64,000 nt of DNA from Aureimonas ureilytica DSM 18598 = NBRC 106430 (GTDB lineage: Bacteria > Pseudomonadota > Alphaproteobacteria > Rhizobiales > Rhizobiaceae). Shown piece after piece: positions 3,537 to 18,882 of this stretch. Numbering within the stretch: position 1 is the first letter of the stretch; each line of letters opens with the position of its first letter. Position numbers and translations under genes: made by a program. Under the pieces are notes generated by a model. The model saw nothing but the letters and a program-made list of their open reading frames with translations. It had not been told where the DNA came from and searched no databases. The stretch lies in assembly GCF_000382705.1 (NCBI RefSeq), contig NZ_ARQE01000002.1:62001-126000 (forward strand), given 5' to 3'.

Positions 3537-4787
3537 GTGCCCTCCATTCCGACCGACACGGCGCGCGCGGAAGCGCTTCCCGCCTATCAGGATCCGCGCG
3601 TTCGGAACCGGAATCTGCAATGGATGCGCGCGCTCGCCGCGCTCTTCGTGCTTCTCTACCATGCGAGCGTCTATCTCGGCCAAGTCGTCGGGGACGCGTC
3701 TTTCCTGCGCGTCTTCGACGGGCGGTTCGGGCTGATCGGGGTTGCGATCTTCTTCGCGACCTCCGGCTATCTCATGGCCGAGATCCTGCCCAAAGCCGAT
3801 CCCTGGCGTTTCCTCCTGCACCGGGTCGTGCGCATCTACCCGATCTTCTTCGTGGTGCTCCTGTCGCTGCTCCTGGTACGGCGGCGGCTCGGCGAGGTGG
3901 ACCTGTGGGCAGTTACGCTCGTGCCGGTGGGCGAGGGGCGCATCTACTATCTCGGCGTGGAATGGACGCTCCTGTTCGAGACGACCTTCTACGTGTTCCT
4001 GTTTCTGTGCAGTCTGGCCGGGTTGCGTCATAAGCTTCCGTGGATCGCCGGTTTGTGGCTGGTCGTGATCGCCATCGGAACGGTGCTTTTCAGCAGCCTG
4101 CAACCGACCCTCACGCCGAAGATCGAGTTCCTGCCGCTGATGGCGGTCAACTCGGCCTTCGCGCTCGGCCTTCTTATTCCGCATCTGCGGGACCGCGGCC
4201 TCTTTCAGCCCGCCGCCGCGACCCTGGCGGTTGGCTTCATCCTGCTCCTCAGCATTTTCCCGTTCGGCTACGATCGCTGGCTGGCCTCCTTCGCGGCGGT
4301 GCTCCTGGTCGGGCTCGTCGCCTCGCACCGTCCTCGCCAGGATGGGCGCCCCGGCCTCGTCTCGCGCCTGGCGGACCGATACGGCGATTGGAGCTACGCC
4401 CTTTATCTCTGCCATGCACCGCTCGTTGTCGCGATCTACCTGAAGCATCCCCCGCTGCCGAGCTGGGGCCTGTGGACGCTCGCCGTCCTCGTTCCGCTCG
4501 CCGTCGCCGTGCCATACGGCCTCTTGGATCTCGCGCTGTACCGGCGTCTCAAGGGCTGGGTGGATCGAAGCAGCCAGACCACCTGCACGCTAATGGCATG
4601 CGCTTACACGGCCTTCTTCATCGCCGTCGCCGCGACAGCGTCGCTCGTCGGCACCGGCCCGACGCCGATCCTGACGCGCCAGCCGGTGGCCAAGCCCGTC
4701 CCGCCACCAGCGGAAACCGCCGTGCCGACGCTCATACCCGAGCCCGCGACGCCGCAACCGCCCACGCCGGAAACGACACGTCCTTAG
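3537..4787 (+). CDS. acyltransferase 3 (OafA/YrhL-like) membrane protein
   Basis: This is a 416-residue protein from a GTG start preceded by AGAGAGAAG. It begins with RNRNLQWMRALAALFVLLYHAS, the usual first helix of acyltransferase-3 proteins with the catalytic-type histidine, and has about ten membrane helices. Members move acetyl or other acyl groups from the cytoplasm onto sugars of lipopolysaccharide, exopolysaccharide or peptidoglycan. The last 50 or so residues after the final helix are rich in Pro and Thr (KPVPPPAETAVP and similar), an unusual flexible tail. It ends 270 bp before the Pel-like operon on the same strand, so it could modify that polymer, but no direct link is seen. The alternative is a glycan or Nod-factor-like acetyltransferase with another target. 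Confidence 0.85.
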   Translation: MPSIPTDTARAEALPAYQDPRVRNRNLQWMRALAALFVLLYHASVYLGQVVGDASFLRVFDGRFGLIGVAIFFATSGYLMAEILPKADPWRFLLHRVVRIYPIFFVVLLSLLLVRRRLGEVDLWAVTLVPVGEGRIYYLGVEWTLLFETTFYVFLFLCSLAGLRHKLPWIAGLWLVVIAIGTVLFSSLQPTLTPKIEFLPLMAVNSAFALGLLIPHLRDRGLFQPAAATLAVGFILLLSIFPFGYDRWLASFAAVLLVGLVASHRPRQDGRPGLVSRLADRYGDWSYALYLCHAPLVVAIYLKHPPLPSWGLWTLAVLVPLAVAVPYGLLDLALYRRLKGWVDRSSQTTCTLMACAYTAFFIAVAATASLVGTGPTPILTRQPVAKPVPPPAETAVPTLIPEPATPQPPTPETTRP

Positions 4788-5057: not shown

Positions 5058-7316
5058 ATGCGCCTTTTCGCGCTGGCCATGGCTGTTTTCCTGCTCGTCC
5101 CCATGGCAGCCTTCGCTGCCGGGCCAAAGGGCGATTCCGTCAAACGCGAAGTCCTGGGTCTCTACGACAGCGCTTTCGAAGAGACGCCCACCGACACGAT
5201 GCTCCACACGAACGTGGAGATGCCGCTCAACCATCTCGGCTATATCCTGCGCTACCACGATCTGCGTCAGGGCCCGCCGCCGAGGGAACTCGCCGAGCGC
5301 GCGGTGGCTGTCGTCACCATGTTCACCTACGAGGTCGGCGATCCCCGCGCCTTTCTGACATGGCTGGAACAATCAGCCGACATCGTGCCTCGTTTCATCT
5401 CGATGGGACAGATCGGCGCGAACCTGACGGAAGCCAATATCCTGCGCGCGAACCGCGTGTTCGAGCGGCTCGGCCTGCGTATCGTGTCGGACTACGTCCC
5501 GAACTTCATCGCAGCCAACGTCGTCACGTTGGATCGAAGCCTCATCGGCTTCGAAAGCCAGGTCGACCCCCTCCCGCCGGGACACCCCGTTGTGGTGCGG
5601 GCGGGTGAGGGCGCCAATGTCGCGCTGGAATACGAGACGGATCGTCCCGGCGGAGCCTTGCGCAGCATTGTCGTGGCGACGGGGCCGGGCGGCGGCTATG
5701 TCGCGGGCGGCTTCGCGCAATCCTTCGACGAGGCGCTCAATCTCAAGCGCTGGATCATCGATCCGTTCGAGTTCCTCCAGCGCGCGCTTGGCGGACCGGA
5801 TTTTCCGGTGCCCGATACGACGACCCTCTCCGGTCGTCGCATCTATTTCAGCCATGTCGATGGCGATGCCTGGAACAATCTGTCCTACGCTTCGATCGAC
5901 ATGTCGAAGCCTCAGCCCTCCAGCGAGGTCATGCTGGAGCGCCTGATCCGACCCTATCCCGATCTGCCGGTGAGCGTCGGAATCGTGGGCGGCGACATCG
6001 ATCCCGAGATGGGCGGCGGTGAGGCGGCGGCGAAGGTCGCCAAGGCGATCTACGCGCTGCCGCAGGTGGAAGTGGCGAGCCACACGATGACGCATCCCTT
6101 TTTCTGGGAGTTCTTCGATCCTTACGATCGCGAACGTGAGCTGAAACTGATCGAGGAAGTGTCGCCCCGCGCAAACGGCTTGGTCGAGACCCTGACCTCC
6201 GCCCTGAAGCTGACGCCATCGGGCGCTTCGACACACAACCGTTTCGTCGCCGGTTCCAACGACCTGCCGCGCGCCTATCTGCGCGATCCCTTCAGCTTCG
6301 AGACGGAGATCGGCGGTGCGTTGAAGCTTGCCGAAGGTCTGGCGCCCGCGGGCAAGAAGGCTGCGCTCTATCTTTGGAGCGGCGATACGCATCCGACCGA
6401 GACCGCCATACGCGCCACACGTGAAGCGGGCGTGCGCAACATGAATGGTGGCGACGTGCGTTTCGACACGCACCGCCCTTCGATCGGCTATGTGGCGCCG
6501 CTGTCGCGCACGGTCGGCCGCGAGCGGCAGATCTATTCGGTCAACAGCAACGAGAACAACTACACCGAGCTGTGGACGAACCATTTCTACGGCTTCCGCA
6601 ATGTGCGCGAAACCTTCGATCGCACCGGTGCGCCGCGCAGGCTCAAAGGCGTCAACGTCTACTACCACAGCTATTCCGCCGAGCGCCCGGCCGCGCTCGA
6701 CGCCGTGCGCTACCATCTCGACTGGGCACGCACAGCGCGTCTCACGCCAATCCGCGCATCCCGCTACGCTGCGGCGGCGGACGGTTTCTTCTCGACCGAG
6801 ATCACGCAGCTTTCTCTGGAGCGATGGACCGTGTCGAAGCGCGACGGTTTGGACACGGTGCGCTTCGACCGAGCCGATGAGCGTCAGGTGGACATGGCGG
6901 CGAGCATGGGGGTCCTCGGTTCGACGAGGAGCCAAGGCTCGCTCTACGTCTCGCTCGATCCCAGCGTGGCAGATGCCGTCGTCGCACTCGAACCGCGCCG
7001 CGATCCGGTGGAGGCGACGGACGCCCTCCATGCGTCGATGGTCGACAGCCGTTGGCTGGTGGAAACTCTCAAACGCGAGCCCGGCCGTGTTACCTTCCGC
7101 GCGGAAGGTTTCGGCCCGGGCGATTTCACATTCGAAAACCTGCCCGCGGAGCCCATGATCGTGACGGCGCGCGACGGCAAGACGCTGATCGCGGAGATCG
7201 AAATCGCTCCCAAACCCGCGCAGCCGGTCTCCTTCTCCCTGCCGGCAGGAACGCCGAGACCCATCGACGTCTCGATCGCCTGCGCGACGTCGCGCCATGC
7301 GGAGCGTCATCGATGA
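5058..7316 (+). CDS. PelA-like polysaccharide deacetylase without the hydrolase domain
   Basis: The protein has 752 residues. A signal peptide (MRLFALAMAVFLLVPMAAFA) sends it to the periplasm. The first half is a Rossmann-like/amidotransferase-like part. The deacetylase part carries FSHVDGDAW with Asp268 and Asp270 and SHTMTHPF with His342 and His346, matching the metal-binding Asp and HxxxH of PelA (CE18). Further PelA-type blocks follow: YLWSGDTHPTE, NMNGGDVRFDTH, NNYTELWTNHFYGF and VNVYYHSYSAERP. A beta-rich C-terminal region ends the protein. Pseudomonas PelA has an N-terminal glycoside hydrolase domain; here it is missing, and a GH114-like protein is encoded separately at the other end of the operon. 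The likely role is partial removal of N-acetyl groups from an amino-sugar polymer during export. Its stop overlaps the next start by four bases. Confidence 0.85.
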   Translation: MRLFALAMAVFLLVPMAAFAAGPKGDSVKREVLGLYDSAFEETPTDTMLHTNVEMPLNHLGYILRYHDLRQGPPPRELAERAVAVVTMFTYEVGDPRAFLTWLEQSADIVPRFISMGQIGANLTEANILRANRVFERLGLRIVSDYVPNFIAANVVTLDRSLIGFESQVDPLPPGHPVVVRAGEGANVALEYETDRPGGALRSIVVATGPGGGYVAGGFAQSFDEALNLKRWIIDPFEFLQRALGGPDFPVPDTTTLSGRRIYFSHVDGDAWNNLSYASIDMSKPQPSSEVMLERLIRPYPDLPVSVGIVGGDIDPEMGGGEAAAKVAKAIYALPQVEVASHTMTHPFFWEFFDPYDRERELKLIEEVSPRANGLVETLTSALKLTPSGASTHNRFVAGSNDLPRAYLRDPFSFETEIGGALKLAEGLAPAGKKAALYLWSGDTHPTETAIRATREAGVRNMNGGDVRFDTHRPSIGYVAPLSRTVGRERQIYSVNSNENNYTELWTNHFYGFRNVRETFDRTGAPRRLKGVNVYYHSYSAERPAALDAVRYHLDWARTARLTPIRASRYAAAADGFFSTEITQLSLERWTVSKRDGLDTVRFDRADERQVDMAASMGVLGSTRSQGSLYVSLDPSVADAVVALEPRRDPVEATDALHASMVDSRWLVETLKREPGRVTFRAEGFGPGDFTFENLPAEPMIVTARDGKTLIAEIEIAPKPAQPVSFSLPAGTPRPIDVSIACATSRHAERHR

Positions 7317-8686
7317 CGCCGCTTCGTCTGACCCTCGGCCTCGGGATCGCTGCCGCGGTGGCGGCCGGATTTCTGATTCCCAGCACATCCGAGCGTCTCG
7401 CCATGCTGGCGCGCGACGGCCAGTTCAGCGCGGCGCTTCGCGAGGGTGACCGGGCGATCCGTTCGGGAAAGCACGATCCGAGAACGCTCGCCCGCCTCTT
7501 TCACATCAACAGCCTCGAAGGCGACCCGGAAACGGCACGGCGAGCGATCTTCGCCTATCTCGATCAGAAGCCGAACGACTCGTCGATGCTCTGGCGCGCC
7601 GCGGAATTTCTGGAGGAACAGGGCGACGTCGAAGGCCACATGGCCGTTCTCGCCAGACTGATCGATCGCACCGGCGCTCCGAACGCCATCGATCAACTTG
7701 CGAGCCTCTACCGCCTTCACGGGCGCTTCGCGGAAGAGCAGGACCTTCTGCTCGCCACCGATCCGGGCAAGCTGTCCGTGCCCATGCGCTGGCGAACAGC
7801 CGGTTTGCGGGTCCGTATCGGCGACTTGCCGGGCGCGGCCGCTCTCGTTCGCATGCTCGACGACGAGCCGGGCGCGACAGGGGCCGAGCAGCGGCCGCTC
7901 GCCTTCGAGATCCTGATGCGCGCGGGCGCTCCGGCCGAAGCCGGTCGGCGCGCCGAAGGCTGGCTCAAGACGGGCATGCTGGCGGACGAGCAGGCGCTCT
8001 ACGTCCTCAACCTCGCGACAGCCGGAGCCGGGGATGCGGCGCTCGCTCTCGCCTTGCGGGACGGGCGGCAGGTGACCGATCGAGCGTCGCTTGCCTGGTC
8101 GCTCGGAACGCGCGGTCATTTCGATCTCGCGGAAGACTTGATCGATCGTTGGATGGCCGGCGGCAACCAGCGTCTGCTAGGGCGTGCGACGACGCTCTAT
8201 GTCGATCTGGCTCTGTCCACCGGCTCGGTCGGACGGGTCTTGGCGCGGACGAGCGGGAAGCTGCGCTCGGACGATCCCGCGCTCCGGACTCAAGGCGCAA
8301 GGCTCGCGGCGACGCTTTTCGATCGCGCGGGCTACGCTTCGATCGCGTCCCTGCGCCCGCTCCTGACCGGGGAGGTCCTGGCCCGGGAACCCCTGTTCGG
8401 CGCCGCGCTGTCTCAGGCCGAGCGAAACGTCATGGCGGCACGCTACTTCCTGCGCAGCGCGAGCCTGGGCGAACTCGACGAGGCGGGCGCCCGCCTGTGG
8501 ACAGCCATGGCCGAGGAACTTCTCGGGGCCGGCGAGACGCTCGACATCTTGCGGACCGCATGGCGTGCCGATGCCCTGTCGCCCGCGATGCTGGCCGAGA
8601 TGCAGGGCGTCGCCCGCCGCAACCATCGCTTCGATCCCGCCTGGGCCGTGGTCGCTCGGCCGTCCCATGCAAGGCCCGGCGCATGA
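7313..8686 (+). CDS. PelB-like TPR scaffold protein lacking a beta-barrel
   Basis: The protein has 457 residues, with one N-terminal hydrophobic segment (LTLGLGIAAAVAAGFLIP) followed by helical repeats of TPR character through to the C terminus, such as ARDGQFSAALREGDRAI and RLHGRFAEEQDLLLAT. PelB of Pseudomonas is over 1,000 residues: an inner anchor, many TPRs and an outer-membrane barrel. This protein resembles only the first part and stops where the barrel would follow. The TPR part of PelB docks PelA; a similar role as a periplasmic scaffold for the deacetylase just upstream is inferred. Start and stop overlap both neighbours by four bases (ATGA). The assignment rests on gene order and architecture; direct similarity by eye is weak. 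Confidence 0.65.
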   Translation: MTPLRLTLGLGIAAAVAAGFLIPSTSERLAMLARDGQFSAALREGDRAIRSGKHDPRTLARLFHINSLEGDPETARRAIFAYLDQKPNDSSMLWRAAEFLEEQGDVEGHMAVLARLIDRTGAPNAIDQLASLYRLHGRFAEEQDLLLATDPGKLSVPMRWRTAGLRVRIGDLPGAAALVRMLDDEPGATGAEQRPLAFEILMRAGAPAEAGRRAEGWLKTGMLADEQALYVLNLATAGAGDAALALALRDGRQVTDRASLAWSLGTRGHFDLAEDLIDRWMAGGNQRLLGRATTLYVDLALSTGSVGRVLARTSGKLRSDDPALRTQGARLAATLFDRAGYASIASLRPLLTGEVLAREPLFGAALSQAERNVMAARYFLRSASLGELDEAGARLWTAMAEELLGAGETLDILRTAWRADALSPAMLAEMQGVARRNHRFDPAWAVVARPSHARPGA

Positions 8687-9270
8687 GAGCGGAACGTCCG
8701 TCCCCCGAACCGGCGAAGGCCGCGCGGACCGCGAACGTCTTCGCGCTCCGCCGCAGCCGGAAGGCTCAAAGCGCCTGGATCGTCGAAATGGCGATCCTCT
8801 TCGCTCTCCTGCTGGTTCTCGATCAGGCGATGCGGCCGAGCTTCGCGCTGCTGGACGTCGCTCCTCATCCGTTCTGGGCGCCCGTCATCGCCATGGCCGC
8901 TCTCTACGGCCTGATGGCGGGTCTGACGACCGCCGCCACGGCCACGCTTCTCCTGGCGTGGACGGCCCCGGCGCTCTCGCCGGCGATGGCCGACCATTTC
9001 CTGCAATGGATGCAGTTCTGGAAGGATCCCGTTCTGTGGCTTCTGGCCGCTCTCGCACTCGGCCTGCATTGCGACCGCGAAGCCGCGCAACGGTTGGAGC
9101 TGGAAGCGAGGGCGGCGGAGGCGGAGGCTCGCAGCGAGACCATCGCGGCCTACGCCACGACGCTGCGCTCGCAGATCGGTCGCTTGGAACGCGACGTCGC
9201 CCTGGCCGCCTCCAAACCCGCCGATCCGACACTCCATAACGATCATCCCATGTCGGAGGGGGCACAATGA
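8683..9270 (+). CDS. PelD-like membrane protein lacking the GAF/GGDEF c-di-GMP receptor
   Basis: The 195-residue protein begins at the ATGA overlapping the previous stop; the frame is open further upstream, but only as a shadow. After a basic N terminus come about four membrane helices (near residues 33-49, 64-80, 81-95 and 115-129), including HPFWAPVIAMAALYGLMAGL and FWKDPVLWLLAALALG, the pattern of the PelD membrane domain. A coiled coil (about 131-175, alternating Glu/Ala/Arg) follows. PelD is normally about 450 residues, with a GAF domain and a degenerate GGDEF that binds cyclic di-GMP. Both are missing, so this protein cannot sense c-di-GMP in the known way. It probably still forms the membrane core with PelE and PelG. 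Confidence 0.72.
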   Translation: MRAERPSPEPAKAARTANVFALRRSRKAQSAWIVEMAILFALLLVLDQAMRPSFALLDVAPHPFWAPVIAMAALYGLMAGLTTAATATLLLAWTAPALSPAMADHFLQWMQFWKDPVLWLLAALALGLHCDREAAQRLELEARAAEAEARSETIAAYATTLRSQIGRLERDVALAASKPADPTLHNDHPMSEGAQ

Positions 9271-9923
9271 CCGCCTCGGTAGGGGCTGTCGCTCCGCGGG
9301 AGAAGCTTGGCTGGGTGAAGCGTTTCGGCCTGCTTTCGGTCGCGACGCTCCTGGCGGCCTCGCTGGACACGCTCCTGATCTGGGCGACTTACTTCGACTA
9401 CATTCGGACGATCGTCCTCGTTCTTCTGCATCTCGTGCTCGCGGTAGCCGTGGGTTCGGCGACGAGCCGTCTTCTGGCGGACCAGACCCATGCCGTGCTG
9501 CTCGGTTGCGGGCTGGCGGTGATGGGGCCGTTCGGAGCGGCAGGCGCCCTCGTTGTCGCGCTCGCAGACCGGAGTTCGGCCGCGGGCCATCCCGAACTGG
9601 AGGACTGGTATCGCCGCCTGTCGGGCGAAGCGGAGCGCAACGCCTCCGAAATCATGCAGGCCGATATTCTGGAAGGGCGCGCCTACCGACCATCGCGCGT
9701 CGGCGCCGACAATTTCAGCAGAATTCTCGCGCATGGGACCGTGTCCGAACGGCAGGCGGTTCTGGGATTGCTGGTGCAGCATGACGAGCAAGGCTCGCTC
9801 GACCTGATGACGACCGCGCTTCGCAGCCCCGACGTCGCCGTTCGTGCCTCGGCGGCCGCCGCCGTGGCGCGCATGCGGGAGACCGCCGCCAGGACCGTGC
9901 CGACCCGAGAGGCGGTGCGATGA
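9267..9923 (+). CDS. PelE-like membrane protein with helical-repeat tail
   Basis: This protein has 218 residues. Several hydrophobic segments fill about residues 15-105 (GLLSVATLLAASLDTLLIW, IVLVLLHLVLAVAVG, LLGCGLAVMGPFGAAGALV). A soluble tail follows, with HEAT/TPR-like helices such as SERQAVLGLLVQHDEQGSL and SPDVAVRASAAAAVARM. PelE combines membrane helices with a helical-repeat cytoplasmic domain and belongs to the PelDEFG synthase complex, and the gene sits in the PelE position between the PelD-like gene and pelF. It overlaps both neighbours by four bases. It is shorter than Pseudomonas PelE. The call depends mainly on position and architecture. Confidence 0.7.
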   Translation: MTASVGAVAPREKLGWVKRFGLLSVATLLAASLDTLLIWATYFDYIRTIVLVLLHLVLAVAVGSATSRLLADQTHAVLLGCGLAVMGPFGAAGALVVALADRSSAAGHPELEDWYRRLSGEAERNASEIMQADILEGRAYRPSRVGADNFSRILAHGTVSERQAVLGLLVQHDEQGSLDLMTTALRSPDVAVRASAAAAVARMRETAARTVPTREAVR

Positions 9924-11437
9924 CCGGCGTTTCCCCCTTCGATCGGACGCTCGGCCAGCCTCTCGACGTCTGTCTCGTGGTGGAGGGCTGTTATCCCCAT
10001 ATCGCGGGCGGTGTGTCCACTTGGGTGGACTGGCTGATCCGCTCCCTGCCGGAGGTGCGGTTCGGCGCCGTCTCGCTGGTCGCCCCGGTCGGAGACCGCA
10101 CGGCCCGCTATCCCTTCCCGGACAATCTCCTGCAGTTTCAGGAAGTCGTCATGGGCGACCATCCGGCGCCGCGACGCGGCTGGAGCCAAAGCCTTGCGCC
10201 GTCCGCCGAACGGCTCGCCGGAGCGCTCGTGGCGTTCCTGAAAGAAGGACGCCTCACGACCCTTCGCGAGATCGTCGCCCTCGTGAACGATCCGAAGCGG
10301 CCCGTGCCGCTCTGGGCGCTCGAGCAGGGGCCTTATGCCTTCGAGCTCTGCCGCATCTCCTATCTGCAGCTCATGCCGCACGGCTCGTTCCGGGATTTCT
10401 TCTGGGCCTGGTCCTCGCTGATGGGCGGTCTCTTCGCCGTTCTCAAGGCGCCTCTGCCGGCCACGCGCGTCGTTCACACGATCTCGACAGGCTATGCCGG
10501 CTTGCTCGCCGCGCGCGCGGCTATCGAAGGCGCGAGCCGGGTCTTCATCACCGAGCATGGCATCTACACGAACGAGCGGCGGATCGAGATCCTCATGGCC
10601 GACTGGGTGGTGGACACGGTCGACAAGGGCCTGTCGATCCGCGATCAGCGCACCGACCTGCGCGATCTCTGGATCATGGCTTTCGAGAGCTATGCGCGCT
10701 GCTGCTACGAAGCCTGCGACGCGATCACCACCCTCTTCGGCGACAATCAGCCGATGCAGAAGGCGCTGGGCGCCGATCCCGAGCGTCTCCGGGTCATTCC
10801 GAACGGCATACCGGTCGAGCGCTTTTCCAGCATCGGGCCGGTGCCGTCGCAAGCGCGACCAACTGCGGCGCTGATCGGTCGCGTCGTCCCGATCAAGGAC
10901 ATCAAGACCTTCATCGAGGCGGCCGATCGGATGCGCCGGACGATTCCCGACGTCCATGCGGTGATCGCCGGTCCGGTGGACGAGGACCCGGCCTATGCAG
11001 CCGAGTGCCGCGAGATGGTGGCGCGGCGGGGGCTGGAGGAAACCGTATCCTTTCTTGGCCGCGTGGATGTGCGGGAGCTTCTCGCCGTCAGTCATGTCGT
11101 GGTACTGACGAGCCTCAGCGAAGCGCAGCCGCTGACCGTTCTCGAAGCCGGCGCCGCTGGCCGACCCTGCGTCACCACGAATGTCGGGGCCTGTCGCGAA
11201 ATGATCGAAGGTGCGGGCAACGATCCGGCCTTCGAGGGACCGGGCGGCGTCGTTACCGACATTCTCGACGCCGAAGCCATCGCCGAAGCGGTCTCACGCC
11301 TCCTCGCCGACGCGGACCTGCGCCGCACGATGGGTGAGAACCTGCGCCGACGCGTCGCGCGAAGCTATGCGTCGGACCTTTCCGCCGATCGATACCGCGC
11401 GCTCTACGACCGCGCGCCTGCCACCAAGGCGGCTTGA
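9920..11437 (+). CDS. pelF: PelF-type GT4 glycosyltransferase
   Basis: This 505-residue cytoplasmic glycosyltransferase is the likely polymerising enzyme of the operon. It opens with VCLVVEGCYPHIAGGVSTWVD, characteristic of PelF, and contains VFITEHGIYTNERRIEI and YEACDAITTLF, also typical of PelF. The second half is a GT-B fold with RVIPNGIPVERF, LIGRVVPIKDIKTFIEA and the GT4 EX7E motif (Glu401 and Glu409, in SEAQPLTVLEAG). PelF of Pseudomonas uses UDP-activated sugars to build an amino-sugar polymer; the exact donor here is unknown. It starts on an ATGA overlap with the previous gene and is followed after three bases by pelG. Confidence 0.93.
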   Translation: MTGVSPFDRTLGQPLDVCLVVEGCYPHIAGGVSTWVDWLIRSLPEVRFGAVSLVAPVGDRTARYPFPDNLLQFQEVVMGDHPAPRRGWSQSLAPSAERLAGALVAFLKEGRLTTLREIVALVNDPKRPVPLWALEQGPYAFELCRISYLQLMPHGSFRDFFWAWSSLMGGLFAVLKAPLPATRVVHTISTGYAGLLAARAAIEGASRVFITEHGIYTNERRIEILMADWVVDTVDKGLSIRDQRTDLRDLWIMAFESYARCCYEACDAITTLFGDNQPMQKALGADPERLRVIPNGIPVERFSSIGPVPSQARPTAALIGRVVPIKDIKTFIEAADRMRRTIPDVHAVIAGPVDEDPAYAAECREMVARRGLEETVSFLGRVDVRELLAVSHVVVLTSLSEAQPLTVLEAGAAGRPCVTTNVGACREMIEGAGNDPAFEGPGGVVTDILDAEAIAEAVSRLLADADLRRTMGENLRRRVARSYASDLSADRYRALYDRAPATKAA

Positions 11438-11440
11438 ACC

Positions 11441-12940
11441 ATGGCGGGGATCGGCTTCGAACTCAGACGTCTGGCGCGCGAAGGCGGGGTGATCCGGCCC
11501 GTCGCCTCGGCCGGCCATGGCGCGGTGGTGGCGGCGGGTCCTTGGCTGCTTACGGTTCTGGCGCTCAGCATCATCCAGCATCGCCTGCCGCGCTCCACGC
11601 AGGCCGCGTACGACCTTCAGGCACTGGTCATCTATGTCTTCTGCCTGTCGCTGGTGGTGACGGCGCCCCTTGTCGCGGGCGCGTTGCGGCTCGCCGCCGA
11701 CGATCTTCACCTGCGCAAGCCCGATCGAATCCGCGCGACCTATCTCGTCAGCCTCGCCGCCTCGATCGTCGCAACGGCTCTTGTGGCCCTGTTTCTCTTC
11801 CGCTTCGGCTTCGGATGGCGCGGCGAGCCGCTTCTCGCAGCCTCCGCCGCATCGGGCGCGACGGCGGCGATCTGGCCGGCGACGGCGTTTTGCGCCGCCA
11901 CACACGACTTCGGCTCCATCACGCGGGGCTTCGTGCTCGGTCTGATCCTCGCCGTCGGTGCAACGCTCCACGGCGCCTCCGCAGGCCTTACGCCACCCAT
12001 CCAGGCGCTGCTCTTCGCGGCCGGCCTCTGGTTCACGGCGGTCTGGTTGACTGGCCGGGTCCTGTCGACCTTTCCCGCCGACGTGCGGAACATCGGCGCC
12101 GCGCTCTGGCGCATCCTGGAGACGACGCGACGCCATTCGGCCGTCGTGCTCGGCGCCCTCGTCGCCACCCTGGCGATCTGGGTGGACTCCTGGATTCTCT
12201 GGTTCGGGCCCGCCGGGCTGGCCGTCGCCAGCGGATTGCCCACGGCGCCCTTCTACGACAGCGCCATGTTCGTGGCACGCCTGAGCATGTTGCCCGGCCT
12301 CGTCCTTTTTCTCGGTTCCGTGGACACCGGCGTGTTCCAGGCGGTACGCCGCTTCCTCGGCGCGGTCGAGGGGCACGCCAGCCTGTCCCGGATCGAGACG
12401 CTTTCGGTCGGCATGAGCCGCGAGATCGATCAGCTTCTCGTGCGAATGATCCTCGTTCAGGCGACCTTCAGCACGGTTGCCCTGGCGCTCGCGCCTGCGT
12501 TCGTAGAGCCGGCCGGGCTTCTCTACCAGCAGCTCGGAATCCTGCGGCTGGGCCTTCTGGCGGCGCTCTTCCATACAATCTTCTTCGCGGCGACGACGCT
12601 CCTTCTGCTGCTCGGGCAGGAGCGGCGCTTTCTCCTGGCGCAGCTCGCGTTCCTCGCTTCCAATGCCGCGCTGACCGGCGCGACCCTGGCGATCGGCCGC
12701 GACGCCTATGGCTTCGGCTATCTGGCTGCGACAGCCCTTTCTGCACTTCTGGCGATCTGGCTTCTCAAACGGTCGCAGGATGCGTTCGTCTATCTCACCT
12801 TCTCCGCCGCGCTCGAGCAAAGCCGCAACCGGCCCCCTTTGCCGCTCCAGGCCATTCCGATCCTCCTTCTTTCCCACCTACGCCGCATCGCCCTTCGAGC
12901 GACGACGCGTCCATCTCAGTCCCAGGAAACCGAACGATGA
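11441..12940 (+). CDS. pelG: PelG-like polysaccharide transporter
   Basis: This 499-residue integral membrane protein has about twelve predicted helices. It opens with MAGIGFELRRLAREG and SAGHGAVVAAGPWLLTVLAL, the family start of PelG. PelG belongs to the MOP/MATE-like exporter superfamily and is thought to move the growing chain across the inner membrane together with PelD, PelE and PelF. Three bases separate it from pelF, and its stop overlaps the start of the export-protein gene by four bases. It is close in length to Pseudomonas PelG. Confidence 0.92.
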   Translation: MAGIGFELRRLAREGGVIRPVASAGHGAVVAAGPWLLTVLALSIIQHRLPRSTQAAYDLQALVIYVFCLSLVVTAPLVAGALRLAADDLHLRKPDRIRATYLVSLAASIVATALVALFLFRFGFGWRGEPLLAASAASGATAAIWPATAFCAATHDFGSITRGFVLGLILAVGATLHGASAGLTPPIQALLFAAGLWFTAVWLTGRVLSTFPADVRNIGAALWRILETTRRHSAVVLGALVATLAIWVDSWILWFGPAGLAVASGLPTAPFYDSAMFVARLSMLPGLVLFLGSVDTGVFQAVRRFLGAVEGHASLSRIETLSVGMSREIDQLLVRMILVQATFSTVALALAPAFVEPAGLLYQQLGILRLGLLAALFHTIFFAATTLLLLLGQERRFLLAQLAFLASNAALTGATLAIGRDAYGFGYLAATALSALLAIWLLKRSQDAFVYLTFSAALEQSRNRPPLPLQAIPILLLSHLRRIALRATTRPSQSQETER

Positions 12941-14235
12941 TCCGGATCACGTCTCTGCTTCTCGCATCGGTCCTCACGCTTTCCGGCGGCTTGGGCACAG
13001 CGACAGGCGCTCTGGCCCAACCCGCGCCTTCCGGCGCGTCCTCGGCGCCCGACGGAGCGGGTTTCACCATCGGCGACAAGCTGCGCGTGACGTTCTTCGA
13101 GCAGATGGACATGCCAGGCGGGCAGGGCGGAGCTGCGCCGGCCACCACCTTCTACCAGCGCATCGACCTGACGTCGGACTACGTGGTCGGCGCCGACGGG
13201 CGGATTAGTCTGCCGCGTTTGGGCGCGATCAAGGTGGCAGGGCGCGATGCCGACAGCGTGAGCGCCGACATCCAGTCGGCTTATCTCGACGCGATGGGCC
13301 GGCCGGGCGACGTTCACGTCGCGATCCTGGAGCGCCAGCCTGTCTATGTGCTTGGTCCGGTGCGCTCGCCGGGAGCCTTTGCCTATGCCAGCGGGATGGT
13401 CGCCATCCAGGCCATCGCGCTGGCCGGCGGGCCGGAGCGGTTGCAGGATCGCCTCGCTCCGGTGGTCGAGGCCGGGCGCGAGACGGAACGCTCGGAGGAC
13501 GCGCGCACGCGCCTGACCCTTCTTCTGTCGCGGCGCGCCTGGCTGGAATCCGTGCGGGATGGAACGCCCCCTGTCGTGCCGGACGAGCTGGTGCGCCTCG
13601 TCGGGCGGACGAATGCCGGCGAGATGGTCGCCGCCGACGTCGCGGCAGGTCGCGCGGCCGCTTCGGCGCGCGAAAGCGAGATCGCCAATTTCCGCCAGCG
13701 TGCGCGGGCTTGGCGCGAGGAGATGACGGTCCTCAACCGCTCGCTGGGTGAAATCGAACGCGAAATCACCGAGCGCGGCGCACGGATACGCCAGGCGACC
13801 GAGCCCGATCCGCGCCTCAGCCGCGCCAGCGTCATCACTACGCAGCGCACCGAGCTCGTCGAACTCGAACGACGTCGGCGCGAAGTGCAGGCCTCGATCC
13901 ATCGCATCGAGCAGCAATTGTCGGAAACCGAGGCAGCCCGCGCGCGTGTTTCGCTGGAGTTCGACCGGACCATCGCGCAGGAGCTGGTGACGCTGACCAA
14001 CGACATCGTTCGCCTGCGCCAGATGGCCTCCAGCGCGTCCGAAATCGCCGGTTCCCTCGGAGATGCCGCGAGTTCGTCCGGCTCGGGCGAGTTCGACATC
14101 TCGATCATCCGAACGGCGGCGGACGGTGTCGAAACGCTCGCGGCGACGCCAACGACGCGGCTGATGCCGGGCGATGTCGTGCGGGTGACGCGCGGCGGCG
14201 CGGTCGTCGGGACGAGCGAGGCGGCGGTGCGATGA
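12937..14235 (+). CDS. ExoF/Wza-type polysaccharide export protein with coiled coil
   Basis: The protein has 432 residues from the ATG that overlaps the pelG stop; the open frame upstream is a shadow of pelG. A signal peptide ends near GALAQ; there is no lipobox cysteine, unlike Wza. A polysaccharide export domain starts near residue 42 (GFTIGDKLRVTFFE, then YVVGADGRISLPRLGAIKVAG). An SLBB domain near residue 133 reads RQPVYVLGPVRSPGAFAYA. A long coiled coil spans about 244-351. A second short export/SLBB-like segment (TRLMPGDVVRVTRGG) closes it. This layout resembles rhizobial ExoF. Classical Pel clusters use the PelB barrel and lipoprotein PelC to cross the outer membrane; this protein appears to take that place. 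Confidence 0.85.
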   Translation: MIRITSLLLASVLTLSGGLGTATGALAQPAPSGASSAPDGAGFTIGDKLRVTFFEQMDMPGGQGGAAPATTFYQRIDLTSDYVVGADGRISLPRLGAIKVAGRDADSVSADIQSAYLDAMGRPGDVHVAILERQPVYVLGPVRSPGAFAYASGMVAIQAIALAGGPERLQDRLAPVVEAGRETERSEDARTRLTLLLSRRAWLESVRDGTPPVVPDELVRLVGRTNAGEMVAADVAAGRAAASARESEIANFRQRARAWREEMTVLNRSLGEIEREITERGARIRQATEPDPRLSRASVITTQRTELVELERRRREVQASIHRIEQQLSETEAARARVSLEFDRTIAQELVTLTNDIVRLRQMASSASEIAGSLGDAASSSGSGEFDISIIRTAADGVETLAATPTTRLMPGDVVRVTRGGAVVGTSEAAVR

Positions 14236-15176
14236 GCGAGCGACAGGCGAGCCCCGATCCGATGCGTCGCTTGATCCTTGCCGGAGCGTTGGCTGCCCTC
14301 CTGCCGGGCGAACGAGCGCAGGCAGCAGCAACTCCACGGCCCGACAGCGAGGCCCGCCGTCTCCTGCGAGCGGCACGGCGTTGGGGTTGCCAGTATCAGG
14401 ATATCGATCTCGACGCGGTCGCAGAGTCCGATCTCGATCTCATCGCGCTCGAGCCGAGCCTGGACGACTGGTCGATGCGCTTCATCACGCCAGCCGACAT
14501 GGAGCGCCTGAAGCGCAAGCCGGACGGCTCGCGTCGCCTGGTTCTCGGCTATCTCCCGGTCGGCGAAGCCGACATCAAGCGCTGGTACTACACGGACGAC
14601 ATGCGGGCGGAGCCGCCGGCCTGGCTAGGGCCCGAAAACCCCAACTGGCCGGGCTCGCGCCATGCGCGCTACTGGGACCCGAGCTGGCGCGCACTGATGG
14701 CGACAGGCGACGATTCTCTGCTTCGGCGCATCCTCGCCGTTGGCTTCGACGGAGCTCTCCTCGACCGCGTCGATGCCTATGGCGACTGGCGCGAGGAGCG
14801 GCCAAGTGGCCAGAACGACATGATCGATCTCGTCGCAACGATCCGCGATATCGCCTCGGAGCGGAACCCCGATTTCCTCCTCGTTCCTCAGAATGCCGAA
14901 GACCTGCTCCTGTCGGCCCGCTATCGCCGATTGATCGACGGGCTCAACAAGGAAAGCCTCCTGACCGGCTTATCCGGCCCCGGCGTTCCGAATTCCGAGG
15001 ACGACGTGGACTGGAGCCTCAAGCGGCTGAAAAAAGCGCAATCCGATGGCGTCGCTATTTTCGCCACCGAGTATGTCAGTGACCCAGCAAGCCAGCGGCG
15101 GCTGTCCGACCGCCTCGAAACCTACGCCTTCAAACCCTTCTTCGGCGTTCGGGAACTGGACGTGTTGCCGGACTAG
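14232..15176 (+). CDS. GH114-like endo-alpha-1,4-polygalactosaminidase (PelA hydrolase counterpart)
   Basis: This protein of 314 residues has a signal peptide (MRRLILAGALAALLPGERAQA). The mature part is a TIM-barrel of the TM1410/GH114 type: DLIALEPSLDDW, VLGYLPVGEADIKRWYY, PAWLGPENPNWPG, ARYWDPSW, GFDGALLDRVDAYGDW, FLLVPQNAEDLL and GVAIFATEYVSD. Such enzymes cut alpha-1,4-linked galactosamine polymers, and the hydrolase domain of PelA is related. As it is secreted and is the last gene of the Pel-like operon (four-base overlap with the export gene), it is best read as the missing PelA hydrolase on a separate chain. Which acidic residues are catalytic is not certain by eye. Confidence 0.83.
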   Translation: MSERQASPDPMRRLILAGALAALLPGERAQAAATPRPDSEARRLLRAARRWGCQYQDIDLDAVAESDLDLIALEPSLDDWSMRFITPADMERLKRKPDGSRRLVLGYLPVGEADIKRWYYTDDMRAEPPAWLGPENPNWPGSRHARYWDPSWRALMATGDDSLLRRILAVGFDGALLDRVDAYGDWREERPSGQNDMIDLVATIRDIASERNPDFLLVPQNAEDLLLSARYRRLIDGLNKESLLTGLSGPGVPNSEDDVDWSLKRLKKAQSDGVAIFATEYVSDPASQRRLSDRLETYAFKPFFGVRELDVLPD

Positions 15177-15731
15177 CCGTCTATGGCAGAAGGAGGGTGT
15201 CAAAGCTTTCGGTTAATGTCGTCGATCTGCGCTCAAGGAGCGAGCTTGCCGTGCCATCGGCGGAAGCAAGCGTTTCAACGCTCTCGACTTGGTGCCGGTT
15301 CGAGGGGTCAGTCGCCACCCCGTGGCGTGTTGACGCCGCACGGCGCAAGGCGGTAAAGCCGAGAGCATCTAGCCCTCCCAAGGCTTGGATGGGTGGCCGA
15401 GTGGTTTAAGGCAGCGGTCTTGAAAACCGCCGTGCGGGGAACCGTACCGTGAGTTCGAATCTCACCCCATCCGCCACAACAGCCGACCGAGTGTCGGACA
15501 CCGGACCGCGAGCTTGAAGCGCTTTCCGGTCGCAGCGATTTGGTCTCTTGCAAGACGCTGAAGACCCATAAGCTGTCGTCTGAGTCCAATGACGTCCTGT
15601 CGCCGTTCATCAGGCATCGGATCGGCTGAACCAGAAAGTCGGTCGAGCAACGACCTTCTCGAAGCGCCTCGAACTCTCGACAATGCCCGAACCCGTCCCA
15701 TCTGTACGGTATTGACATTGGAGTGACGGGT
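15177..15731. other. intergenic stretch around tRNA-Ser
   Basis: Apart from the tRNA at 15387-15476 no gene is seen in these 555 bases. A weak promoter-like pair TTGACG at 15330-15335 and TAAAGC at 15354-15359 (18-base spacer) precedes the tRNA. Ten bases after the tRNA there is a hairpin, CCG-A-GTGTC-G-GACAC-CGG at 15487-15504, with no T run. The remainder shows no coding signal. No duplicated tRNA 3' end or integrase is present, so there is no sign of an integrated element. Confidence 0.5.
15387..15476 (+). tRNA. tRNA-Ser(UGA)
   Basis: The 90-base gene folds as a class II tRNA. The acceptor stem GGATGGG pairs with CCCATCC before the discriminator G and an encoded CCA at 15474-15476. The D arm is GCCGAGTGGTTTAAGGC. 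The anticodon loop CTTGAAA has TGA at 15421-15423, which reads UCA-type serine codons. A long variable arm (GTGCGGGGAACCGTACC) and the T arm GAGTTCGAATCTC complete it. A long variable arm is expected for serine. Confidence 0.97.
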
Positions 15732-16472
15732 TTGAGCGCTGTTTCCGACCGCGACGAAGACGCCCAGGACATTCTGATCCGCCGCCTACAGGCGATCGAC
15801 AACCTCACTGCGCAGGACCGACATCTGATTTCGTCCTTGCGTTTCGACGTCGTCGACATTCCCCCCCGAACAGATTTCGTTCGGGAAGGCGATCGGCAAA
15901 CGAAATGCTGCCTTCTGATGGATGGTGTCGTCATCCGCTCGAACTTCACCCGTTCGGGCGAGCGGCAGATCCAGTCCGTCCATATTCCCGGCGACGTTCC
16001 GGATCTGCAGAGCTTGCATCTGAGGCGGATGGACCACTATATCGGAAGCGTCTCCCAATGCCGCGTCGCGTTCGTGGCGCATGATCAGATGCTGCGGGTG
16101 CTGCGGGACTCTCCCCATCTCACGGCGATCCTGTGGCGCGAGACGCTGATCGACGCCGCGCTCTATCGCGCCATCATCGTGCGCAATGCGCGGCTCGGCT
16201 CGACGGAACGGTTGGCACATTTCATCTGCGAGATGTGGTGCCGTTTCGATGCGGTGGGTCTGACGGATCGCAACGGTTTCGCATTCCCGATGACACAGGA
16301 AATGGTGGGGCAGGTGCTCGGGCTCAGCATCGTCAGCGTCAACCGTTCGATGCAGATTCTGCGATCCGACCGGCTCGTCGTCTGGGACCGGGGGCGGATC
16401 GACATTCTCGACTGGACGCAGCTCGCCGAGATCGCTCAATTCGACCCGACTTTCCTGCATTTGAACGAATAA
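15732..16472 (+). CDS. Crp/Fnr-family transcriptional regulator
   Basis: The protein has 246 residues if it starts at the TTG at 15732, which has GGAG eight bases upstream; a GTG at 15723 overlaps that ribosome site and is less likely. The N-terminal half is a cyclic-nucleotide-binding-type beta-barrel (FDVVDIPPRTDFVREGDRQ, then CCLLMDGVVIRSNFTRSGERQ). The C-terminal winged helix (about 165-235) has MTQEMVGQVLGLSIVSVNRS and a recognition helix. No FNR-type four-cysteine iron-sulfur pattern is seen, and cAMP-contacting residues are not conserved by eye, so the signal is unknown. It stands alone after tRNA-Ser. Confidence 0.88.
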   Translation: MSAVSDRDEDAQDILIRRLQAIDNLTAQDRHLISSLRFDVVDIPPRTDFVREGDRQTKCCLLMDGVVIRSNFTRSGERQIQSVHIPGDVPDLQSLHLRRMDHYIGSVSQCRVAFVAHDQMLRVLRDSPHLTAILWRETLIDAALYRAIIVRNARLGSTERLAHFICEMWCRFDAVGLTDRNGFAFPMTQEMVGQVLGLSIVSVNRSMQILRSDRLVVWDRGRIDILDWTQLAEIAQFDPTFLHLNE

Positions 16473-16580
16473 CGGGCCAAGCTTCGAAGGTTGCGCGAGC
16501 GGGGAAGGTCCCGCCGGCGGCCGACGGATTGACTTGCCGAACTCGTCGCGGCACACCAAACGCTCATTCGGACGGTGTCG

Positions 16581-16973
16581 ATGCGCGATTACTACACGAT
16601 TACGGAACTCACCCGCGAGTTCGATATCTCGACGCGGACGATCCGTTTCTACGAGGACGAGGGGCTGATCTCGCCGATCCGGCGGGGGCGCACGCGCTTG
16701 TTCCGCCATTCGGACCGCCATCTTCTCCGCATGATCCTGCGCGGCAAGCGTCTCGGCTTCTCGATCGCGGAAATTCGCGAAATCATGGGAATGTATCGCA
16801 CGCCGCCCGGTGAAGCGGGGCAGTTGCGGGCGATCGTGCGCCGGGTCAGCGAGAAGCGCAGCGAACTCGAACAAAAGCGGCGCGATATCGAAGACCTCCT
16901 CGCCGAGCTCGATCAGGCCGAAGAGGCTTGCCTCACGCGAATGGCCGAACTTGGAATCTCGCCGACGACGTAA
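16581..16973 (+). CDS. MerR-family regulator (LiuR-like)
   Basis: The protein has 130 residues from the ATG at 16581 (MRDYYTITELTREF); a GTG two codons upstream is possible. The MerR helix-turn-helix and wing are clear: ITELTREFDISTRTIRFYEDEGLISP and RRGRTRLFRHSDR, with GFSIAEIREIMGMY next. A dimerisation coiled coil (VRRVSEKRSELEQKRRDIED) fills the rest. It resembles LiuR, which controls branched-chain amino acid degradation in other proteobacteria, but no such genes are next to it. There is no cysteine cluster of a metal sensor; the single Cys near the C terminus is not typical. It follows the Crp-like gene by 108 bp. Confidence 0.87.
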   Translation: MRDYYTITELTREFDISTRTIRFYEDEGLISPIRRGRTRLFRHSDRHLLRMILRGKRLGFSIAEIREIMGMYRTPPGEAGQLRAIVRRVSEKRSELEQKRRDIEDLLAELDQAEEACLTRMAELGISPTT

Positions 16974-16988
16974 CGCTGCCGCCGGCCA

Positions 16989-17948
16989 TCAGGGCTGGGC
17001 GCTCGGTTCGAAGGAACATGCGTTTACGGTGTCGCGGACCTTCGCGCTTCCGCTTTCCGAGAGCTGCCCCCGAAGCAGCTTTTCGAGAAGGTCGTCCGCC
17101 TTCAAGCGCGTTTCGACACAGCCGCAATAGGACACGCAGAAGGCCGTATCCCGGTCCTTCTCGCAGGTCTGCTGGCAACTTGCCCGAAACGCCTCCGTCT
17201 GATCCGGGGGCGAGATCGTGGCGGCCAGAGCGACGAGGCCGAACGAGATCGGCTGGTGCAGGAGGTAGAAGAGCAGCGAATGTCGGCCGAGCGTCGAAAG
17301 CGGCCAGAGCGCCTTCAACGGGTCGTTGAGACGCGCGAGGCGCGGCCAAGCGCCGATGCGATCGAAGAGCTGCGCCAGGGCGATGCCGATCAGAATGGCA
17401 CCGAACCACGGAAACAGCGGCACGAAGTCGTTCGACAGGGGCGGGTGTTCGGAAAAGCCGATCCAGGCGAGCCAGCGACTGTCAGTCAGCGCAGTCGTGA
17501 AGAGGGATGGCAGCCCAATCACAACCGCGGCGCTTGTGGCCGTCGCCCAGAAGGGCAGCGTGAGGAACGCAAGGCCGAGCAGGCTGCCAAGCGCGATCAG
17601 ATGCAGGATGCCGAAGAAAACGAAGCCCTGCGGCGTCAGCCAGAAGGTGGCGATCGAGATGGCGAGGGCACCGGCGCCAATCTGCAGGAAGCGCTTGCGA
17701 AAGGATGGCCAGCGGATCGCGCGAGCATGGGCCAGAACGAGGCTGACGCCGACGAGGATCAGGAAGCTCGAAGCGATGCAGCGCGCAAACAGCTTCCAGC
17801 CGCCGACCTGCGCGAAGCCGGCCGGGAGGTAGCCGAAAAATTCGAGATCCCAGGTGAAGTGGTAGACGAGCATCGCCAGAAGCGCGACGCCACGGGCGAC
17901 ATCGAGCAGTTCGATGCGCCCACGCTGGGTTTTCTCAGGTACCGTCAT
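16989..17948 (-). CDS. DUF1624 membrane protein with cysteine-rich C-terminal tail
   Basis: This protein has 319 residues. It opens with RIELLDVARGVALLAMLVYHFTWDLE, the first helix of the heparan-alpha-glucosaminide N-acetyltransferase-like (DUF1624) family with its conserved His. About seven or eight hydrophobic helices follow, as does LGRHSLLFYLLHQPI near the end of the membrane part. Members are predicted to move acyl groups across the membrane; the target is unknown. The last 65 residues form a soluble tail with six cysteines at 258, 262, 271, 275, 277 and 311, that is CX3C-X8-CX3CGC plus one more. The gene is convergent with the MerR gene and 15 bp away from it. Confidence 0.8.
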   Translation of the reverse strand: MTVPEKTQRGRIELLDVARGVALLAMLVYHFTWDLEFFGYLPAGFAQVGGWKLFARCIASSFLILVGVSLVLAHARAIRWPSFRKRFLQIGAGALAISIATFWLTPQGFVFFGILHLIALGSLLGLAFLTLPFWATATSAAVVIGLPSLFTTALTDSRWLAWIGFSEHPPLSNDFVPLFPWFGAILIGIALAQLFDRIGAWPRLARLNDPLKALWPLSTLGRHSLLFYLLHQPISFGLVALAATISPPDQTEAFRASCQQTCEKDRDTAFCVSYCGCVETRLKADDLLEKLLRGQLSESGSAKVRDTVNACSFEPSAQP

Positions 17949-18015
17949 CGCGCGTCCACTGGTTCGATCGCCGTTCCGCCTATCTCAATTGCGGAAGGAA
18001 GGCGAACGGAAGTTC

Positions 18016-18882
18016 ATGGCCGTCGCCTTCAAGCCGATCGAGGACATCCGCATGAAAATGATCGAAGCGTCGGGCGCGCGCATTCCCGCCCTTGGGCTCG
18101 GCACCTACAAGCTGACCGGCGAAACCTGCGTCGGCATGGTCGCCAAGGCCATCGAGGGCGGCTATCGCCATATCGACACGGCGCGCATGTACGGCAACGA
18201 GCGGGAGGTGGGCGAAGGCATTCGGGCGAGCGGCGTCGATCGCTCGGACCTCTTCGTGACCACCAAGATCTGGTATGAGGATATCGGAGCCGACCGGCTG
18301 GTCTCGACCGCCGAAGCCGCAGTCGAAGCGCTGGGCACCGGCGCGGTCGATCTTCTTCTGATCCACTGGCCGAACGCCCGCATTCCCCTGGAGGATTCGA
18401 TCTCGGCCCTGAACGCGGCGCGCGAAAAGGGACTGACGCGCCATATCGGCGTGGCGAACTTCCCGAGCACGTTGATGGACGACGCGGCCGCGATGAGCGC
18501 CGCGCCGCTCGTCTGCAATCAGGTCGAGTATCATCCGCTTCTGTCGCAGGAAGCCGTGCTGGCCGCCTGCGAGCGGCACGACATGGCGCTGATCGCCTAT
18601 TCGCCCATCGGGCAGGGCGGCGAATTGCTCCAGCACCCGACCGTGACCGGCATCGCCCAACGCCTTGGGCGCACGCCCGCTCAGGTCATCCTGCGCTGGG
18701 AGATCGAACAGCCGCGCGTCGGCGCCATTCCGCGCACGTCCAACCCCGATCGCCTGTCTGAGAATTTGGACGTCTTCTCGTTCGAGCTGTCGGACACCGA
18801 CCGGACGGCGCTGAACGACATGACCCGCCAGCGCAAGCGTCTGGTCGATCCGAGCTTCGCTCCGTCCTGGGATAGGGTTTGA
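18016..18882 (+). CDS. aldo/keto reductase
   Basis: The protein has 288 residues from the ATG at 18016, which follows a purine-rich GGAAGG-type stretch; a longer frame to 17914 exists but overlaps the promoter of the divergent gene. The family (beta/alpha)8 barrel and NADPH site are clear: IPALGLGTYKL, YRHIDTARMYGNEREVG, LLLIHWPN, YSPIGQGG and the cofactor block AIPRTSNPDRLSENL. The catalytic tetrad reads Asp54, Tyr59, Lys84 and His117. It probably reduces small aldehydes or ketones such as methylglyoxal or 2,5-diketogluconate-like compounds; the physiological substrate is unknown. Confidence 0.92.
   Translation: MAVAFKPIEDIRMKMIEASGARIPALGLGTYKLTGETCVGMVAKAIEGGYRHIDTARMYGNEREVGEGIRASGVDRSDLFVTTKIWYEDIGADRLVSTAEAAVEALGTGAVDLLLIHWPNARIPLEDSISALNAAREKGLTRHIGVANFPSTLMDDAAAMSAAPLVCNQVEYHPLLSQEAVLAACERHDMALIAYSPIGQGGELLQHPTVTGIAQRLGRTPAQVILRWEIEQPRVGAIPRTSNPDRLSENLDVFSFELSDTDRTALNDMTRQRKRLVDPSFAPSWDRV

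Follow-up and report, generated by a model that had tools for sequence, protein, structure and literature searches.

A Pel-type polysaccharide operon of Aureimonas ureilytica with an ExoF-type OPX protein and without PelC or a PelB barrel

The window analysed here is a stretch of 64,000 nucleotides from Aureimonas ureilytica DSM 18598 (contig NZ_ARQE01000002.1, positions 62,001 to 126,000). Between window positions 5058 and 15176, eight open reading frames (ORFs), all intact and all on the + strand, form an operon that resembles the Pel system (pelABCDEFG) of Pseudomonas aeruginosa, with the addition of a gene, designated X, for an outer-membrane polysaccharide export (OPX) protein. As judged from sequence, this is a recurrent Pel variant, with an ExoF-type OPX protein that either takes the place of the outer-membrane module or adds to it. 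The eight genes, several of them with tetratricopeptide-repeat (TPR), glycosyltransferase or glycoside hydrolase (GH) assignments, are as follows.

A, 5058..7316, + strand, 752 amino acids: PelA-like deacetylase (CE21 type) without the N-terminal hydrolase domain
B, 7313..8686, + strand, 457 amino acids: PelB-like anchored TPR protein, no barrel
D, 8683..9270, + strand, 195 amino acids: PelD-like membrane part, no recognisable GAF or GGDEF
E, 9267..9923, + strand, 218 amino acids: PelE-like membrane protein
F, 9920..11437, + strand, 505 amino acids: PelF glycosyltransferase (GT4); NF038011 1.3e-115, DUF3492 1.7e-67
G, 11441..12940, + strand, 499 amino acids: PelG membrane protein; PF16933 7e-85
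X, 12937..14235, + strand, 432 amino acids: ExoF-type OPX protein
Y, 14232..15176, + strand, 314 amino acids: TM1410/GH114-type glycoside hydrolase

An initial annotation, made from the letters of the window, had described eight co-directional genes joined by four-base overlaps or a three-base gap, and this is exact: ATGA overlaps of 4 bases occur at six of the seven junctions, and a 3-base gap separates F from G. All eight genes are predicted to be translationally coupled, with X set between pelG and the hydrolase gene. The Pel order A-B-D-E-F-G proposed there is likewise borne out, each gene having been matched by family or profile comparison, and PelF and PelG are indeed clear from sequence at the values listed above; G is the single PelG match in the window genome. 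The same cluster recurs in other genomes, and it is therefore more than a chance assembly.

The A protein begins with a hydrophobic, signal-peptide-like stretch and matches the PelA structure 9cgy at 1.6e-61, with the match confined to the part after the hydrolase domain; a PelA model built from canonical rows only recovers it at 3e-52. Aligned to 9cgy and to fused PelA ORFs, A keeps all seven CE21 catalytic positions (H266, D268, D270, H342, H346, E499, and H537), the catalytic residues of PelA being those named in PMC12022489. Y matches PDB 2aam (4.4e-24) and PF03537 (4.7e-12). In some PelC-bearing loci (e.g., L059 and L068), the A model and the Y model match one and the same fused PelA ORF; Y is therefore the hydrolase half of PelA carried as a gene of its own, a counterpart that the initial annotation had not named. 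From the PelF and PelA families alone, we infer that the polymer is an alpha-1,4-linked N-acetylgalactosamine/galactosamine (GalNAc/GalN) chain.

The identities of D and E rest on profile-profile comparison of eight-row families, together with gene order. By hhalign, the family of eight D proteins from X-bearing loci aligned with canonical PelD at 97.3% probability (2e-11) and the corresponding eight-member E family with canonical PelE at 96.4% (1e-9), with swapped D/E partners at a probability of 1.6% or less. Hidden Markov models built only from canonical PelD and PelE did not reach the window D and E proteins at E<=10, and a first PelE model, which contained the window row, was excluded from the evidence. 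The C-terminus of E gave a weak HEAT-like match. No match to the GGDEF receptor domain of PelD (PF16963) was found at E<=1 in the window D protein, nor in any of the nine other alphaproteobacterial D proteins tested (9/9), and the Ralstonia control was recovered at 2.2e-43. Pel production in P. aeruginosa and Bacillus cereus requires cyclic di-GMP (c-di-GMP) bound to this PelD domain, according to the sections of PMC7112168 considered. As PF16963 is absent from the D proteins, c-di-GMP control at PelD has probably been lost; the missing receptor domain of D had also escaped the initial annotation.

The B protein starts with a hydrophobic helix (anchor) and ends after its TPRs. Its AlphaFold model (pLDDT of 88.3) is an all-helical TPR superhelix with no strand, and Foldseek with this model returned TPR superhelices. 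The hhalign match to the TPR part of canonical PelB (97.9%, 4e-13) is supporting and not decisive because TPRs are repeats. Together with the D and E results, this comparison shows relatedness to the Pel proteins, where the initial annotation had allowed that the TPR, PelD-like, and PelE-like proteins might be unrelated to them. The description of B as a PelB-like protein without a barrel also stands.

The reported lack of PelC extends from the operon to the whole window genome (99.98% complete), in which a 22-row PelC model found nothing at E<=1 while recovering both of its controls (1e-75 and 1e-61). For the PelB barrel, a 27-row model that recovered 4/4 controls at 8e-88 or better likewise found nothing there at E<=1; it took over from an earlier six-row model, which was dropped for having missed one of two true controls (G434). 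A Pel barrel or PelC elsewhere in the window genome, the finding on which the initial annotation would have fallen, was thus not detected by profiles that recovered their controls. Strongly diverged barrels can escape profile searches, as the lapse of the six-row model illustrates, and one could argue that such a barrel or a diverged PelC homologue exports the polymer, with the presence of X being coincidental; with every control found by both final models and nothing at E<=1 in the window genome, we consider this highly improbable. Across the X-bearing genomes, that of the window included, there was no credible genome-wide PelC match in 9/9 searched (Aureimonas endophytica was outside the set) and no credible match to the 27-row barrel model in 5/5 searched, with nothing at all in the window genome (G000) or in G416; all controls of these searches were recovered (2/2, 1/1, and 4/4). 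Separately, four acidobacterial PelB-like proteins of 1285-1484 amino acids (loci L025, L033, L034, and L038) match the short-PelB model; PelC and a recognised PelB barrel are both missing there.

X was first described as an export protein with PES, SLBB, and coiled-coil parts. Its Poly_export match (PF02563, 7.2e-14) is over the Pfam cut-off and its long helical region is present; the SLBB match (3.9e-5, 23.8 bits) lies under Pfam's 27-bit cut-off, with Poly_export and SLBB both matching all nine members of the X alignment at E<=1. The start of the protein is hydrophobic and signal-peptide-like, with no cysteine among the first 60 residues. The AlphaFold model, computed from the nine-row alignment (pLDDT of 78.8, pTM of 0.48), displays a beta head, a helical hairpin, C-terminal strands, and then a disordered tail. 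Two sub-regions can be placed on the DNA.

Poly_export (PES) domain of X, 13069..13323, + strand: residues 45-129, PF02563
Helical hairpin of X, 13444..14076, + strand: residues 170-380 by the model, with the LipC/HlyD alignment within residues 173-382

The best Foldseek match to X was 9n9a, the class-3 OPX protein WzaB of Myxococcus (5e-7), followed by Wza heads. The hairpin aligned with the type I secretion adaptors LipC (Z of 15.6 over 205 residues) and HlyD (Z of 13.9 over 191 residues), a modest margin over unrelated helical matches (<=12.3) in a comparison that covers the listed families only and in which long helices often reach a Z of ~13. An OPX head with an adaptor-like helical region has been described for alphaproteobacterial outer-membrane auxiliary (OMA) proteins related to ExoF (Xiao and others, in the sections of PMC2850547 considered). 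By its model and these comparisons, X is an ExoF-type protein that combines an OPX head resembling class 3 with a hairpin like that of type I secretion adaptors. Of the original "ExoF/Wza-type" label, the first half holds and the second does not, as 0/9 X members match Wza_C (PF18412) at E<=1 in the Pfam scan. The stretch after the last conserved motif (PGDV) is only 18 residues long in X, and 18-30 across the nine members. The proposal that X itself constitutes the outer-membrane exit is thus not supported, and a Wza-type pore is rejected for X, in which no outer-membrane segment was recognised. The window genome holds two Poly_export matches, namely X and a short protein encoded on a different contig.

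The distribution of X was followed through a part of the known Pel loci, i.e., the best 80 of at least 544 PelG relatives in a scan of named genomes, with each genome counted once (G364 and L031, G380 and L020, and G310 and L026 were judged the same by identical match coordinates). The synteny check suggested with the initial annotation returned the same cluster in other genomes: X lies in or near a Pel cluster in ten, these being the window genome, A. endophytica (L017), Bosea sp. AAP35 (L018), three Methylobacterium genomes (L022, L023, and L024), G416, G307, G351, and G349. The X gene follows pelG in 7/10, is divergent from pelD in G307, follows pelB in G351, and sits ~16 kb from pelG in G349; gene order around X thus varies while X stays with the Pel cluster. 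Neither PelC nor a PelB barrel is present in any of the nine loci holding both PelG and X, and no X-model match at 1e-3 occurs in the 37 PelC-bearing loci, all 37 of which have the barrel. A generic OPX model detected no OPX protein at 1e-3 in the other fetched Pel loci of the main set, within the flanks searched.

Across 397 sampled genomes of the order, PelG was over the cut-off in 11 (13 including weak matches). The X model scored below 1e-100 in five genomes, all of which were among the 11 bearing PelG, with a step then to 5e-82 and an ExoF-like tail, many members of which are in genomes without PelG. A Fisher test on these five genomes, taking the PelG and X searches as the same 397-genome sample, gave 6e-9, a value that is overstated because 4/9 of the model rows come from the same genomes. 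PelG was found in 0/60 relatives, 20 of them from the same genus. Beyond the order, a class-wide sample of 385 genomes contained one X match at E<=1e-60, the window genome itself; among 72,556 plasmid records, PelG had no match at 1e-20, and X gave partial ExoF-like matches in two only. Weak X-model matches in L031 (20259-21344) and L100 (15577-16938) were rejected as X, both being HlyD adaptors by Pfam. In L100 (G416), a HlyD adaptor and ABC transporter genes (15577-18767) lie directly upstream of the Pel operon.

Elsewhere among X-bearing clusters, PelA has not kept its catalytic residues throughout. The two metal-binding histidines and the catalytic-base aspartate are gone in 4/7 X-bearing loci examined: L017 (3579-5828, A. 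endophytica), L022 (2768-4984) and L024 (2811-5024), both Methylobacterium, and L100 (13528-15429, G416). Because of these losses, the PelA proteins of the four loci look like pseudo-deacetylases. This pattern, along with a PelD that has no recognisable receptor domain, would suit an operon that is degenerating, or a polymer that stays cell-bound and unexported, with X as a bystander recruited by chance. Such an account seems very unlikely to us, as the eight window ORFs are intact and coupled, the window PelA retains 7/7 catalytic positions, and the gene set is conserved across several families.

We hold with moderate confidence that the locus is a Pel-type synthase operon with a rebuilt outer-membrane stage, in which X would act as a periplasmic conduit. 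On the sequence evidence, the inner-membrane part consists of PelF, PelG, a shortened PelD, and PelE. In such a scheme, (i) PelF would polymerise an amino sugar, (ii) PelG, together with D and E, would pass the chain across the inner membrane, and (iii) PelA would deacetylate the polymer on the anchored PelB rail. (iv) X would then oligomerise into a periplasmic conduit and hand the polymer to the outer membrane, and (v) Y would trim or clear stray polymer. As X is without a recognisable outer-membrane segment, it would probably need a partner pore encoded outside the operon, either an unlinked barrel or, through contact with the adaptor-like hairpin, a TolC-type channel.

Several observations weigh against X as the export conduit of a rebuilt stage. 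No outer-membrane segment is recognisable in X by model, tail length, or Pfam scan. ExoF-like proteins are common in the order (116/397 genomes at 1e-25). No barrel gene recurs beside the Pel operon or X, and among scanned neighbours the single barrel is a TonB-dependent receptor beside X in G307. Sub-threshold PelC matches exist in G351 (E of 0.14) and G307 (E of 0.80), which we called trivial, and there are short sub-threshold barrel matches in G307 (E of 0.017; 41 residues, with a stop), G349 (0.084), and G351 (0.56). Above all, nine distinct related genomes encode a barrel-less PelB-like protein without a full-length X, and G416 has two Pel loci, one with X (L100) and one without (L103).

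The nine X-less genomes are those of L019, L020, and L026 (Hyphomicrobiaceae), G427 (near-identical to L019), L021 (Oricola), L031 and L054 (Pseudovibrio), G428, and G381. In these and in L103, the PelB-like protein spans 154-535 amino acids, has no barrel match, and has no X nearby; in 5/9 of the genomes, the piece is much shorter (154-272 amino acids) than that of the window. Whole-genome searches of the nine for X returned partial matches only, and the six-row barrel model (the one that missed one of two controls) had no match in six of the nine. Seven of the nine have A-B-D-E-F-G, and G428 and G381 have B-D-E-F-G without pelA in the fetched stretch. As an observation apart, the Pel loci L019, L020, and L026 carry three, three, and four GH114-type hydrolase genes, respectively, on the opposite strand, one of the four being a partial match.

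With nine barrel-less genomes lacking a full-length X, a substitution of X for the barrel does not by itself account for the data. The initial view of an amino-sugar polymer synthase operon joined to an OPX protein hence survives as regards operon membership, which is conserved across genomes, and gives way as regards a swap of barrel for X as the full account. X accompanies the barrel-less form of Pel in the loci surveyed, yet is not universal in that form. The same data lend some weight to X being an accessory assembly or length-control factor, with the polymer leaving via an unlinked, unrecognised barrel that also serves the X-less relatives: these retain much the same genes, with A-B-D-E-F-G in seven of the nine; no outer-membrane segment is recognisable in X; and the class-3 OPX proteins from Myxococcus function together with a distinct barrel, described as 18-stranded in the sections of PMC9603273 and PMC9601211 considered. 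This is unlikely, if still a serious contender, given that no barrel gene recurs beside the operon and that X stays with the Pel cluster despite changed gene order. The X-bearing, X-less, and PelC-bearing forms of Pel offer a natural three-way contrast, and L100 and L103 within G416 a natural pair.

The ancestry of X bears on how such an operon might have arisen. In a quick PelF+PelG tree, 8/10 X-bearing loci fall in one group of eleven (SH-aLRT of 86) with three X-less loci, and G351 and G349 are on a separate branch. In a tree of X and ExoF-like proteins, 9/10 Pel-linked rows group with six ExoF-like rows (support of 88/99, under the star threshold), and X of G307 is outside the group on a long branch. 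A single clade of Pel-linked X without G307 was not rejected (AU p of 0.144), and a single origin of Pel-linked X is neither shown nor rejected.

ExoF itself belongs to a Wzx/Wzy pathway. A location in Wzx/Wzy clusters was not borne out for the ExoF-like proteins closest to X: in Pfam scans, the only flippase and polymerase families were those next to L182 (Polysacc_synt_3 and Wzy_C) and L183 (Polysacc_synt and Bac_transf), two rows that lie outside the group. Three of the six grouped ExoF-like rows (L176, L177, and L178, from G248, G037, and G291) have several glycosyltransferase genes nearby, one also an epimerase, with no flippase or polymerase recognised by Pfam scans. Recruitment of X from a Wzx/Wzy pathway is therefore one possibility only. 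The other three grouped rows (G256, G269, and G347) lie directly downstream of a large gene that combines, by its Pfam domains, a deacetylase with a chitin-synthase-like glycosyltransferase of family 2 (GT2).

L179, 9017-12442, minus strand: deacetylase-GT2 protein upstream of the ExoF-like OPX gene
L180, 9303-12806, minus strand: deacetylase-GT2 protein upstream of the ExoF-like OPX gene
L181, 9152-11719, minus strand: deacetylase-GT2 protein upstream of the ExoF-like OPX gene

The L179 protein has a weak GH18 match, and in L181 (G347) a GH18 gene follows. This deacetylase-GT2 gene looks like another amino-sugar synthase, and as a lead, the ExoF-type branch of X may therefore serve more than one synthase, the deacetylase-GT2 gene and its ExoF-like OPX neighbour being a possible second synthase/OPX pairing. 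More speculatively, the polymer could run from the PelB rail through an X ring to a TolC-type channel via the hairpins, in the manner of a tripartite secretion system and without a barrel dedicated to polysaccharide, with the same ExoF-type branch perhaps serving the deacetylase-GT2 synthase likewise; we regard this extended route as rather doubtful.

Current schemes keep two exits apart, with OPX proteins for Wzx/Wzy and ABC pathways and TPR plus barrel for synthase pathways. In the sections considered, PMC9603273 (2022) states that no crossover of polysaccharide co-polymerase (PCP) or OPX proteins with synthase-dependent proteins was known, although its table contains a few PgaA- and BcsC-like barrels close to OPX genes. 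In PMC7112194, pelB fission, pelA rearrangement, and locus gains are reported, and an OPX protein is not named in the parts considered. Among the matches listed for open-licence full texts, no title or abstract describes a Pel plus OPX arrangement. In the loci described here, a synthase operon includes an OPX protein, and does so in several families within a single order. Should X carry out the export, making the polymer and releasing it through the outer membrane would be exchangeable modules, and the roles of PelB and PelC would become testable by comparison.

Set beside the P. aeruginosa Pel system, the window operon shares the PelA deacetylase, the anchored TPR part of PelB, PelD/PelE, PelF, PelG, and the order A-B-D-E-F-G. 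It differs in that PelC, the PelB barrel, and a recognisable PelD GGDEF domain were not found, in the encoding of the hydrolase by its own gene, and in its additional OPX protein. With pelDEA(DA)FG of B. cereus, as described in the sections of PMC7112168 considered, the operon has in common a deacetylase-only PelA and a separate PelA-type hydrolase; the B. cereus system keeps the PelD GGDEF domain, whereas none is recognisable in the window operon, which encodes anchored TPR and OPX proteins and has another gene order. Gram-positive Pel systems are already known to include split PelA and PelD variants, and those two features are hence not new.

On the export side, X resembles the ExoF-type OPX/OMA proteins of alphaproteobacteria in its OPX head and adaptor-like helical region (PMC2850547, in part), and differs from the ExoF-like relatives examined in its setting, theirs being either clusters with several glycosyltransferases or the vicinity of a deacetylase-GT2 gene, and that of X a PelF/PelG operon. 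The class 3 (D1D2) OPX proteins with a partner beta-barrel, EpsY/EpsX and WzaX/S/B of Myxococcus xanthus, likewise have an OPX head without an outer-membrane-spanning part. Unlike X, EpsY consists of D1 and D2 domains only (PMC9601211, in part), and the Myxococcus proteins serve Wzx/Wzy pathways together with a barrel partner (PMC9601211 and PMC9603273, in part). Wza of Escherichia coli, a class 1 OPX protein, has PES and SLBB domains and its structure was matched by X, which in contrast has no Wza_C match and no N-terminal cysteine.

Large proteins are encoded beside Pel genes in L017 (13094-16393), L098 (11324-17215), L102 (12431-18229), and L175 (1-7219), and they are mutually related, with 38-63% identity in long matches. 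Both of those scanned (L017 and L098) are RTX-type, with a polysaccharide deacetylase domain at the Pfam cut-off in L017 and under it in L098. The fetched stretches of 3/4 of these clusters yielded no pelA, and deacetylation may therefore have moved outside the cell in clusters with the large protein. Around the window operon itself, an Acyltransferase_3 membrane protein (3537-4787; PF01757, 4.5e-24) is encoded 270 bases upstream of pelA, on its strand, and the opposite strand carries, 1.8 kb downstream of Y, a gene for a heparan-alpha-glucosaminide N-acetyltransferase-like protein (16989-17948; PF07786, 9.7e-75).

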